Assembly: GCF_004138495.1 (NCBI RefSeq)
Contig: NZ_ML142864.1
Span: forward strand, 177,786-193,716
Length of the DNA: 15,931 nucleotides
Origin: Phytoactinopolyspora endophytica
GTDB taxonomy: Bacteria > Actinomycetota > Actinomycetes > Jiangellales > Jiangellaceae
Direction: 5' to 3'
Shown here in pieces: positions 6,590 to 10,059 of the stretch. Position 1 is the first letter of the stretch. The number at the start of each line of letters is the position of its first letter. The notes below the pieces were generated by a model. The model did no database searches, had not been told where the DNA came from, and saw nothing but the letters and a program-made list of their open reading frames with translations. The position numbers were made by a program, and so were the translations under genes.

Positions 6590-7741
6590 GTGGATGTACG
6601 AGCGATCAACCGGATGACATCTGAGTGGCTTCGAGCGGATGGCACCGGTGTGGTGTCGGGTGCGGGTCTATGGCCCCTGCTGGCCGTACTTGCGTCATCG
6701 GCGGATGAGCCCGGCCGGAGCGAGCTGGCCGACGCGGTCGGTGTGCCCGCTGACGAGTGCATGGAGGCCGCGCGTCAGGCGCTGAAGGCGATCGGCGATC
6801 TGGAGGGCGTCGATGCGGCCCTGGGGGTCTGGGCCAACGTGGCCGCGCAGGTGAACCCGGACTGGACGGCGCAGCTCCCCCCGGCGAACGTCGGCGAGCT
6901 GACCGGCGAGCCGGCGGTGGACCAGCCGAAGCTGGACGCCTGGGCGCGGGAGAACACCCGAGGGCTGATCGACCGCTTTCCGGTCGACGCCGACCCGGAC
7001 ACGATGCTCACCCTTGCCAGCGCTTTGGCAGTCCGCACCACGTGGGCACGGAAGTTCAGCGACGAGAACCTGGTCCCGAAGAGCGGGCCGTGGGCGAAGG
7101 AACGGTTGGCGGGCTTGAGCCGCACCTGGCAGGAGCTGGACGACGTGCGGGTGGCGACCACACCCGCGGGTCCGTTGACTCAGACTCGGGTCGAAGGCGA
7201 CAACGGCTTGGATGTCCATCTTGTTCTAGGCGACGAGGACCGGCGGTCCTCCGAGGTGCTCCCGGCGGCTATGGCCGTGCTGGCAGGAGAGCACGAGGCC
7301 CGCGGTGGAACAGAGCTCCTGGAGTCCGATGCCACACCCTCCGCGCCTGGGTTGACGGTTGTGCCGGCTCAGCGGCGGAGCGTGTCAGTGACGGCGGTCC
7401 GTTTTACCGTGCGGTCGGATCACGATCTCTTGGCTCACGCGTCGCTCTTCGGGCTGGACACGGTCCGGCGGGATGATCGGGGACATTTCGCCCGAATCGG
7501 GCCCGTCCCGCTCCGGGTCGACCAGGCGCGCCAGTCGGCGGTCGCCGTCTTCAGTGCGACCGGGTTCGAGGCCGCCGCTGTGACGGCCATCGGGATGCGC
7601 ATGGTGTCGATGCCGGTCCGCAAGGAGCGTGGCCTACGGGTGACCTATGACCGGCCGTTCGGTTTCCTGGCGGTGCACCGCGCCACGGGTCTGGTGCTCT
7701 TTGCGGGCTGGGTCGAGTCCGCCGAGCCTGCCAAGCGGTGA
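6590..7741 (+). CDS. Serpin-family protein (cytoplasmic, no signal peptide)
   Basis: A 383-residue, full-length serpin. Serpins trap serine or cysteine proteases by inserting a cleaved reactive loop into their own beta sheet. The N-terminal helix and SGAGLWPLLAVLASSADEPGRSELADAVG (23-51) match the family's usual beginning (compare FSPLSISTALAML). ASALAVRTTWARKF (144-156) corresponds to the conserved strand before the shutter. The hinge is ATGFEAAAVTAIG (323-335), and the C-terminal signature is YDRPFGFLAVHRATGLVLFAGWVES (353-377). By alignment with alpha-1-antitrypsin, P14 is Phe326 rather than Thr or Ser, and the stretch from P15 Gly to the RPF proline is 31 residues against 25, so P1 cannot be fixed. 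No signal peptide is seen. The start is GTG 6590, probably leaderless. Whether it inhibits a protease is open. Confidence 0.85.
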   Translation: MDVRAINRMTSEWLRADGTGVVSGAGLWPLLAVLASSADEPGRSELADAVGVPADECMEAARQALKAIGDLEGVDAALGVWANVAAQVNPDWTAQLPPANVGELTGEPAVDQPKLDAWARENTRGLIDRFPVDADPDTMLTLASALAVRTTWARKFSDENLVPKSGPWAKERLAGLSRTWQELDDVRVATTPAGPLTQTRVEGDNGLDVHLVLGDEDRRSSEVLPAAMAVLAGEHEARGGTELLESDATPSAPGLTVVPAQRRSVSVTAVRFTVRSDHDLLAHASLFGLDTVRRDDRGHFARIGPVPLRVDQARQSAVAVFSATGFEAAAVTAIGMRMVSMPVRKERGLRVTYDRPFGFLAVHRATGLVLFAGWVESAEPAKR

Positions 7742-7767
7742 GGCTCTTATTCGAAGAGTCGAGCTTG

Positions 7768-7798
7768 TATAATCTAGCTTAGTCTAAGCTAGATTATA
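7768..7798. promoter_or_regulatory. Perfect 31-bp AT-rich palindrome at the ATPase promoter/operator
   Basis: The left arm TATAATCTAGCTTAG (7768-7782), one central T (7783) and the right arm CTAAGCTAGATTATA (7784-7798) make a perfect inverted repeat with 15-bp arms. It ends three bases before the ATG at 7802. The left arm opens with TATAAT, a consensus -10; the right arm contains TAGATT (7790-7795), which ends six bases before the ATG. The symmetry gives the opposite strand the same elements. The AT-richness stands out in this high-GC DNA. With a one-base loop and no T-tract it suits a dimeric regulator's operator better than a terminator. Confidence 0.8.
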
Positions 7799-7801
7799 AA
7801 G

Positions 7802-9283
7802 ATGGAGACTTTCAGGTTCGCCGCCCGCGACGAGTTCGTCAATCGTGTCGCCGATCTGGCGCGCCTCGAGGACTGGTGGGAGGGCGCGGAGCGCAACGTC
7901 CTTGCACTGTATGGACGTCGCCGTGTTGGCAAGTCATGGTTGTTTCGCACCTTCGCCGATGGAAAGCCGGCTATAGTGCTGGTCGCCGACCGTCGCGCCG
8001 AAGGTCAGCAGTTGAACCGCTTCGCCGACCGGCTCGCGCCACTTCTGGGCTTCCGTCCAGATCTCCCTGACTTGCCGACGCTGTTCAGCGCCCTCTATCA
8101 ACTAGCCCGAGAGCAGAAAGTCCTGGCGGTCATCGACGAGTTCCCGTACCTGCTTCCCTCAGTCGCCGCCCGGCGTGACGAGATCCTCACAGCCCTCCAA
8201 GCAGTGATGGAAGAACGCGACTCCGCCACGCTGAAGCTGGTGCTCTGCGGATCGCACATCGGACAGATGACCACACTCCTCAGCGAATCAAGCCCACTAC
8301 GTGGCCGCCTCACTCCACTGTCCGTGGAGCCTCTGCGGTTCGCCGATGCACAGGCATTCATGCCTGACCTCACAGCACAGGAACGCGTCGAGCGCTACGC
8401 GGTTGCCGGCGGCATGAGCCTCTACCTCGACGAACTGGGCCGCGGGCCCGGCGATCTACGGGAACAGGTATGCCGACGAGTCCTCAACCACCGCGGGCCA
8501 CTGTTCAACGACCCACGCGAGGTACTCGAGGAAGAGCTACGACAACCGGGTATCTACTTCTCAATGCTCGAAGAGCTTGCCTTTGGCATGCGCTCGATCG
8601 GCGACCTCGCCACCGCTCTCGGAAGGCGGAGCACCGATCTCAGCCAGTACCTCAATACCTTGAAAGACTTAAGGCTCGTCGAACAGATCGCGCCGCTCAC
8701 GGCCGACCGGTCATCTCGCGATCATCGGTACCGCATCGCCGACGGATTCCTGAAGTTCTGGTTCCGCTTCGTATTCAACTACCAGGAAGACCTGCGCGCC
8801 GGCCTACGACCAGGAGATCACTACGACGGCGAGATCGCCCCGGTACTCGCAGACCATGTCGCACCCGCGTTCGAAGCCCTCTGCCGCGAATGGACACGCA
8901 GTCACCTCGGCAGGCGTGCAAGCCGAGTAGGCACGTGGTGGGGCAAAGCCTTGGCCGAACACCGACGCAGCGGCGAACGCCAGGTCGAAGAGATCGACGT
9001 CGTAGGTCTCCAACGCTCCACCGTCACGATCATCGGCGAGTGCAAATGGACCAATCGCTCCATGACGCCGAAAGTCCTCACCGACCTCGAAACCTACAAG
9101 CTGCCAGCTATGCGACAGGCGAAGCTTCGCTTCTCTGCCGACGGACCGCTCGTCGTCTTCTTCGCCCGCAGCTTCGCTCACAGCCTGATCGAAGTAGCGG
9201 CGACACGTCCGAACGTACATCTGGTCACCCTCGATGAACTCGTATCTGACCTGACCACGACCGACGACCGACAAGGCCAATGA
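7802..9283 (+). CDS. AAA-type ATPase with winged-helix and DUF234 nuclease-like C terminus
   Basis: A 493-residue ATPase of the DUF234/COG1672 type (the archaeal-type MNS group of STAND NTPases). The P-loop is YGRRRVGKS (37-45), Walker B is LAVIDEF (108-114), and LVLCGSHIGQM (147-157) fits the sensor-1 strand. A winged-helix region spans about 256-300 (SIGDLATALGRR, LNTLKDLRLVEQIAP). YRIADGFLKFWFRFVFNYQ (310-328) marks the start of DUF234. The C terminus has EEIDVVG followed by IGECKW: Asp399, Glu413 and Lys415 fit a PD-(D/E)xK nuclease-like core that looks intact. The ATG at 7802 has no Shine-Dalgarno sequence and abuts the 31-bp palindrome. It is a single gene, convergent with dedA. The function of this group is poorly known; defence, plasmid-related or DNA-processing roles are guesses. 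Confidence 0.88.
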   Translation: METFRFAARDEFVNRVADLARLEDWWEGAERNVLALYGRRRVGKSWLFRTFADGKPAIVLVADRRAEGQQLNRFADRLAPLLGFRPDLPDLPTLFSALYQLAREQKVLAVIDEFPYLLPSVAARRDEILTALQAVMEERDSATLKLVLCGSHIGQMTTLLSESSPLRGRLTPLSVEPLRFADAQAFMPDLTAQERVERYAVAGGMSLYLDELGRGPGDLREQVCRRVLNHRGPLFNDPREVLEEELRQPGIYFSMLEELAFGMRSIGDLATALGRRSTDLSQYLNTLKDLRLVEQIAPLTADRSSRDHRYRIADGFLKFWFRFVFNYQEDLRAGLRPGDHYDGEIAPVLADHVAPAFEALCREWTRSHLGRRASRVGTWWGKALAEHRRSGERQVEEIDVVGLQRSTVTIIGECKWTNRSMTPKVLTDLETYKLPAMRQAKLRFSADGPLVVFFARSFAHSLIEVAATRPNVHLVTLDELVSDLTTTDDRQGQ

Positions 9284-9363: not shown

Positions 9364-10059
9364 CTATGCCGGTACGTGTTCGAGCGCGGGGTGTCCATGG
9401 TGGGGTGTGTCGTTCGGGGCGTGTGGGGCCCGCGTACCGCGCCGCGTCGCCGCGGCGCGCGCACGGGCCGACATATGACGGCGGGTGCGGATGATGGCTC
9501 GCGTGGTGGCGAGCCACACGCCGACGACGATTGCGGCTCCGGCACCGATGGCCGACTGAGCCCACAGCGGCACGTCCGTGACGGAACCGGTGACATAGCC
9601 GATGCCGAGCATCCAGCTTGCCCAGGCACTTCCCCCGATCGCCCCGCAGAGCAAGAACCGCTGTGGCGATACCCCCGCCATGCCGGCGGCGGCTGAGCTG
9701 GCGGTCCGGCCGAGCGGAATGAACCGGCCCGCGATGATCGCGGCCGAGCTGGCCGAACCCATACGCATGTAGGCGCGTTCGACGCTGCGCTGTACCCGGC
9801 GCCCCAGCCGAGACCGTGCGAGCACGCCGGGAAGCGTGTGCCGGCCGATCAGGTAGACAGCGCAGTCACCCACCAGCGCGCCGCCGGCGGCTGCGATGAG
9901 CACCGCGACGACGTCCAGCTCGCCCGCGGCGGCAAGTGTGCCCGCCGCCACGACGGCCACCTCTGAGGGAACGATCGGAACCACCGCGTCGGCGGCTACC
10001 AGAGCGGCTATGACGACATACACGAGAACAGGTACGGCAACGAGAGCCAAGAGATCCAC
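9364..10059 (-). CDS. DedA/VTT-family membrane protein
   Basis: A 231-residue integral membrane protein of the DedA (SNARE-associated, VTT) family; some relatives flip or transport polyprenyl phosphates or phospholipids across the membrane. Hydrophobic segments are visible at about 4-24, 33-72, 104-127, 135-158 and 168-188. Family hallmarks are the re-entrant PIVPSE (28-33), GDCAVYLIGR (64-73) and GRFIPLGRT (111-119) followed by AAGMAG. The C-terminal 40 residues are a basic, then His- and Pro-rich cytoplasmic tail. The GTG at 10059 follows GGTGGAG at two bases. It lies 96 bases downstream of topA on the same strand, with a strong stem-loop between them, so joint transcription is uncertain. 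The transported substrate is not evident. Confidence 0.88.
   Translation of the reverse strand: MDLLALVAVPVLVYVVIAALVAADAVVPIVPSEVAVVAAGTLAAAGELDVVAVLIAAAGGALVGDCAVYLIGRHTLPGVLARSRLGRRVQRSVERAYMRMGSASSAAIIAGRFIPLGRTASSAAAGMAGVSPQRFLLCGAIGGSAWASWMLGIGYVTGSVTDVPLWAQSAIGAGAAIVVGVWLATTRAIIRTRRHMSARARAAATRRGTRAPHAPNDTPHHGHPALEHVPA

Follow-up and report, generated by a model that had tools for sequence, protein, structure and literature searches.

Introduction

ATPase-nucleases with DUF234 (PDC-S27) or DUF4143 (PDC-S01) domains belong to the most abundant candidates for defence genes; according to the accessible part of the account, both are ATPases fused to PD-(D/E)XK domains, and validation is pending for most PDCs (PMC12988326). 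Both PDC-S01 and PDC-S27 have also been counted in rumen genomes, as stated in the accessible part of a second account (PMC13356809). These portions of the two sources make no mention of repeats upstream of PDC-S01 or PDC-S27 genes (PMC12988326; PMC13356809). Likewise, full-text searches of PMC literature, with few subscription papers covered, listed no description of such upstream arrays.

Regulatory sites of comparable layout are familiar from other systems. The iterons of plasmid replication origins are short repeats of fixed phase that lie beside the gene of a presumed binding protein and sometimes repress that gene. The controllers of toxin-antitoxin and restriction-modification systems are autorepressors, and their palindromic operators cover the promoter of a gene that may be harmful.

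Here, we analysed a 15,931-nt stretch of DNA from Phytoactinopolyspora endophytica (the window), in which a perfect palindrome stands directly before the gene of a predicted ATPase-nuclease. Comparison with related loci suggests a switch that precedes many genes of this one predicted family in bacteria and archaea, with boxes placed 15 bp apart and a sequence particular to each gene, so that each protein may read and control its own gene.

Results

A perfect palindrome composed of two boxes

The 31-bp palindrome (7768..7798, no strand assigned; 15+1+15), a putative two-box operator, was taken from the inverted-repeat listing of the window and evaluated with shuffles. Its arms, 7768-7782 and 7784-7798, are complementary at 15/15 positions around a central T7783, just as the first-pass annotation of this DNA had described, and it is the sole case of fully complementary arms (100%) among the 8 inverted repeats listed for the window with arms up to 100 nt apart. 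The trinucleotide AAG (7799-7801) separates the palindrome from the ATG at 7802. The annotation was therefore right to let the symmetry end three bases before the ATG, while the end that it gave, 7801, takes in three unpaired bases. Its judgement that the symmetry is unlikely by chance agrees with both shuffling experiments: the palindrome score was matched by 0/300 dinucleotide shuffles of a 145-nt region (p=0.003, the floor of this test), and an arm of at least 15 (loop 0-8) arose in 1/200 shuffles of the entire window.

The exact 31-mer had no match in the genome contig collection (genome_contigs). Within the organism's own 7.6-Mb genome, the core 19-mer (up to 3 mismatches) recurs at two other sites, L010 with 1 mismatch and L011 with 3, and the 27-mer pattern spanning both boxes (up to 3 mismatches) has a single occurrence. 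Many genomic copies unrelated to such genes, a possibility raised in the first-pass annotation as a check on its proposal, were not seen, and the palindrome is nearly unique.

The 1-mismatch copy (L010 1501-1519, C30:8157-8175 in the same genome) resembles both boxes, with 1 mismatch in 19 and 9/12 matches at shift 15. It precedes a GNAT acetyltransferase-like ORF, with TAGATT 7 nt before the GTG, and a MarR-like ORF is found near the site; both ORFs were judged by eye. This copy is possibly a second target or the relic of a lost paralogue, and, as it lies before another gene, the action of the site may not be confined to cis.

A better description of the palindrome is a pair of quasi-palindromic 12-bp boxes placed 15 bp apart across a likely promoter. 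Box 1, TAATCTAGCTTA (7770..7781, no strand assigned), equals its own reverse complement at 10/12 positions. Box 2, TAAGCTAGATTA (7785..7796, no strand assigned), lies 15 bp from box 1, to which it is identical at 10/12 positions, and again equals its own reverse complement at 10/12. The symmetry is perfect because these two quasi-palindromic boxes stand in inverted orientation. A third box at exactly 15-bp spacing was considered and dropped, given that the comparison yielded matches of only 2/12 and 3/12; the array in the window consists of two boxes.

The downstream gene encodes a predicted ATPase-nuclease

The gene that follows (7802..9283, forward strand; 493 aa) encodes a predicted ATPase / winged-helix / PD-(D/E)XK protein. 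Its Pfam matches, PF01637 and PF03008, both exceed the curated cut-offs (ATPase_2, 60.3 bits, cut-off 33.2; DUF234, 55.1 bits, cut-off 22.5), which bears out the identity of a DUF234 ATPase assigned in the first-pass annotation. By HMM score, the protein also matches PDC-S27 model PDLC04984 of PADLOC (E=1.6e-25), with residues 11-420 aligned to positions 3-416 of the 474 in the profile.

The ATPase_2 domain (residues 12-193; 7835..8380, forward strand) contains the Walker A residues G43-K44 as well as D112-E113, each of which is kept in 121/121 aligned relatives. The candidate DNA reader is a winged-helix region (residues 250-312; 8549..8737, forward strand), for which an AF2 model predicts helices at 250-259, 266-273 and 277-289 and strands at 293-296 and 309-312; a weak HTH_metalloreg match at residues 255-295 lies under the cut-off. 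This order of a P-loop NTPase followed by a winged helix, as supported by the invariant Walker residues and the AF2 model, is that of STAND-type proteins, and the protein finds structural matches in Apaf-1/CED-4/NLR proteins. Winged helices in STAND proteins can occur without DNA contact. The DUF234 match (residues 320-419; 8759..9058, forward strand) carries a PD-(D/E)XK-type motif, D399 ... E413-C-K415, recognised from Pfam and conservation: D399 is kept in 120/121, E413 in 98/121 and K415 in 114/121 relatives, and E413 and K415 are invariant among 56 closer sequences. The D ... (D/E)xK motif is predicted to lie on the core sheet, and the best match of the nuclease-domain model is the restriction endonuclease MspJI (E=7.2e-4), the sole one at E<=0.001; this model has a pLDDT of 80.0, and the other four models 64-67.

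No small partner gene, as in two-gene toxin-antitoxin operons, was found; the downstream gene at 9364-10059 is on the opposite strand and has a VTT domain. By Pfam, the ATPase gene is not Rep. On the upstream side, a serpin-domain protein (6590-7741, E=2.1e-18) stops 26 nt short of the palindrome; proteins of this kind are uncommon among bacteria.

Boxes of fixed phase precede many members of the family

Relatives were drawn from whole genomes and the genome contig collection, and 121 loci were analysed. The family counts leave out 40 loci that were incomplete or unparsed by the motif filter and 8 that had been set aside beforehand (4 other genes; the remainder were duplicates or cut short); L036 and L040, in each of which boxes can be seen, were restored by hand, and two loci without usable or unmasked upstream DNA were dropped (L007 has N). 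The organism's own genome contains nine matches to the protein. At all eight paralogue loci examined, AT-rich repeated or inverted half-sites were visible by eye beside the start, differing in sequence each time.

Inverted repeats with p<=0.05 precede the start codon in 70/119 relatives (p<=0.01: 54/119), compared to 6/117 further upstream, 1/121 and 3/121 within the gene and 14/116 downstream, the latter being expected from terminators. The second batch alone gave 30/51 vs 1/51 further upstream. Hence, the first-pass suggestion to look for palindromes before the starts of homologues was rewarded at many loci, but the orthologue L014 lacks a significant one.

When the 75 nt before each start were compared with themselves (match of at least 10/12, shifts 8 to 45), a pronounced phase emerged. 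Matches at shift 15 occurred in 39/121 loci and at shift 16 in 12/121, over a background of 0.3 and 0.2, respectively, in shuffles and 2/121 and 1/121 in far-upstream DNA. Further peaks fell at 30 bp (11 loci) and 45 bp (3 loci), with 0 to 2 loci at all remaining shifts. Split by batch, repeats at 15/16 bp were present in 30/70 and 21/51 loci vs 3/70 and 0/51 further upstream. Under a looser criterion (repeat of at least 9/12 or palindrome with p<=0.05), 96/121 loci were positive; 25/121, L014 included, showed neither such a repeat nor a significant palindrome, and L037 and L038 (61% and 59% identical) stayed under both thresholds. Direct repeats of fixed phase, a feature of iterons, are seen as the 15-bp peak in the family, while the window itself holds two boxes only. 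Judged by these comparisons, the conserved element is the spacing of the boxes by 15 (16) bp, in direct or inverted orientation, and not perfect symmetry.

Individual loci differ in the form of their arrays. The palindrome search missed direct-repeat arrays at 15-16 bp in L003, L101 and L139 (p=0.468, 0.969 and 0.178). The most regular array observed, at L160, comprises four boxes near AACATCGATGTTA with 15-bp spacing. In L040, from a Treponema MAG, CGTAATAAAGTTTAT is repeated at 15 bp upstream of 738, an array outside Actinobacteria and archaea.

The same phase is present in archaea. Among 148 haloarchaeal plasmid records, 15 genes of the 25 matches listed were scanned over 110 nt upstream of their starts as annotated; 15/15 had a match of at least 10/12 at exactly 15 bp vs 0/15 further upstream. 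As a control, TetR genes of the same class (29 of 30 loci) gave 0/29 at 15/16 bp with at least 10/12 (2/29 with at least 9/12), and 5/29 had palindromes. Sister genes for DUF4143 ATPases (L170-L196; 17 of 30 loci parsed) likewise gave 0/17 at 15/16 bp with at least 10/12. However, direct repeats of at least 10/12 were found at 23 bp in 10/17 and within 22-24 bp in 13/17 of these genes, and their upstream regions are mostly non-palindromic (3/17 at p<=0.05). Phased repeats therefore occur in at least two ATPase-nuclease families, with a spacing that is each family's own.

The boxes overlap a putative leaderless promoter

Both hexamers named in the first-pass annotation are present: TATAAT at 7768-7773 and, inside box 2, TAGATT (7790..7795, forward strand), a -10-like TANNNT hexamer and putative promoter element located exactly 6 nt before the ATG in a leaderless arrangement. 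In actinobacteria, a TANNNT at this distance from the start marks leaderless transcription. The 6-nt gap recurs in 22/121 relatives (next highest offset, 9), and a Shine-Dalgarno-like stretch was detected in 2 of the 26 loci with a gap of 6 or 7 nt vs 52/121 overall. The exact spacing points to a leaderless mRNA. Where a 15-bp repeat is present (39 loci), the second box lies at a median of 22 nt from the start.

A perfect inverted repeat just before an ATG could also act as RNA, forming a start-codon hairpin or an attenuator. We consider this very improbable and rejected it as the main reading because the -10 spacing would leave the repeat outside the transcript and because many relatives carry direct, not inverted, repeats. 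The 1-nt loop of the palindrome counts further against a hairpin, as loops of this length are sterically poor for RNA.

The boxes travel with their gene and differ among paralogues

DNA alignment to the orthologue L014 (protein 85% identical) revealed a homologous stretch covering boxes and gene (7766..9264, forward strand), and no homology was found in the flanks. The box sequences are kept in L014 without a significant palindrome (p=0.495). Homology to L036, from a Solirubrobacterales MAG (protein 70% identical), runs from 7764-9124 and again includes boxes and gene but not the flanks. For L037 (61%), homology begins only inside the gene, and a different sequence stands before the ATG.

These data also bear on the possibility that the palindrome is a chance or mutational repeat without function. 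AT-rich islands favour symmetry, an arm of at least this length did arise in one of the window shuffles, and the 25/121 loci mentioned above lack both signals. Nevertheless, one and the same phase recurs in unrelated box sequences, in the second batch and in archaea, and the box sequence is kept in L014 and L036, which makes a functionless repeat scarcely credible.

Across the family, operators were alike (at least 15/20) in 57/65 pairs at protein identity of at least 0.8 vs 69/4661 pairs below 0.3. Pairs from the same genome had alike operators in 3/131 cases. At identity 0.45-0.8, operators were alike in 2/30 same-genome vs 330/1413 different-genome pairs (label permutation P=0.02; the pairs are not independent), which is suggestive, not proof, of orthogonal operators in members sharing a genome. 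Box sequences differ from paralogue to paralogue, are retained between close orthologues and move together with the gene. Two scans asked which part of the protein determines the box sequence, one by sliding-window partial correlation and one by mutual information computed column by column in the largest subfamily, where 43 of 59 loci had a usable box. Neither gave a clear peak or singled out the winged helix.

A separate, unlinked regulator might instead bind the boxes and control the gene. The near copy before an unrelated-looking gene (L010) would fit such an arrangement, and self-binding is itself inferred. Yet the boxes are paralogue-specific within one genome, while their phase is common to domains of life, and a regulator acting in trans would therefore have to exist once per paralogue; we regard it as quite unlikely.

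Discussion

We propose that the palindrome probably serves the adjoining gene as an autoregulatory operator, phased and specific to the paralogue. Inverted repeats before the starts of relatives and near-uniqueness in the genome are what a dedicated operator predicts. The first-pass proposal of such an operator, used for self-control by the ATPase, holds up in these two respects; its emphasis on perfect symmetry does not, given that L014 lacks the symmetry and has kept the boxes. Binding by the ATPase and recognition by its nuclease-like domain, both raised in the annotation, are predictions. Autoregulation is the parsimonious reading because the phase spans domains of life, the boxes are private to each gene and lie at the promoter, and the product itself contains a predicted winged helix. 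The 25 loci with neither signal, the scans for a box-determining domain and the imperfect symmetry of L014 weigh against it.

In such a circuit, the boxes would extend over positions -34 to -4, counted from the start codon. For a leaderless mRNA, this region would include the core promoter. The gene's own product would bind them through its winged helix, one dimer per box, and adjacent dimers packing at the fixed 15-bp repeat could make binding cooperative. Bound product would then shut off its own transcription. Each family member may have co-diverged with its own box, which would avoid cross-regulation between paralogues in one cell. A change of state in the STAND-like ATPase, be it through nucleotide, oligomer or an invader-derived ligand, could free the operator and thereby raise the level of a nuclease that would be dangerous when abundant.

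The boxes could also be a loading or target site of the ATPase-nuclease, serving as self tag, decoy or platform for spreading, with any effect on transcription as a by-product. The iteron-like phase, an ATPase fold near STAND, ORC and MuB-type proteins, the nuclease motif within the same chain and the homology of boxes and gene as one unit without their flanks would all suit such a site. However, the boxes lie at the promoter, as expected of an operator, and three array patterns had 0 exact matches in viral contigs (viral_contigs), which therefore give no sign of an external target. We find this explanation unlikely.

A bolder extension, possible but doubtful, treats the boxes as a code of identity. 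Every paralogue among the ATPase-nucleases would read its own box in a multimer of fixed geometry (15 bp for DUF234, 22-24 bp for DUF4143), which would keep members in the same cell orthogonal in a manner reminiscent of plasmid incompatibility. Occupancy of the self-array would restrain the nuclease, and loss, titration or copying of the box, as might be brought about by an invading element that carries similar repeats, would free or arm it. If true, two large families of defence candidates would be self-addressed, DNA-reading switches.

Returning to the autoregulatory operator, a phase-locked element shared across the family is the first handle that we found on the DNA possibly read by DUF234/DUF4143 ATPase-nucleases. 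Since every gene is accompanied by a predicted binding site of its own, binding, autoregulation and the inducing signal are directly testable in archaeal and bacterial members alike. Beyond this, the array indicates where the true start codon and promoter lie, and it can serve as a sequence signature in the search for more members.

Among described systems, PDC-S27, a PADLOC candidate for single-gene defence with ATPase_2 and DUF234, is one of the closest: the protein matches its model and shares the fusion of ATPase and PD-(D/E)XK domain, but the accessible part of its account contains neither operator nor upstream repeats (PMC12988326), and a defence role is predicted at our locus. DUF4143 ATPases of the PDC-S01 kind also carry phased upstream repeats; theirs are spaced by 22-24 bp instead of 15 bp and are mostly non-palindromic. 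Alignments to the structurally solved archaeal ATPases PABY2304 (2qen) and SSO1545 (2fna) stop before the nuclease domain, and we know of no DNA site for either protein. Plasmid iterons share the short, fixed-phase repeats adjoining the gene of a putative binder; here, the phase is 15 bp, the boxes are quasi-palindromic, and a predicted ATPase-nuclease takes the place of the Rep initiator. The autorepressors of toxin-antitoxin and restriction-modification systems have in common with this locus palindromic sites across the promoter of a potentially harmful gene. Unlike these systems, the arrangement described here involves a single gene whose one polypeptide unites a putative DNA reader with an ATPase and a nuclease, and it maintains a fixed phase in bacteria and archaea through many unrelated box sequences.
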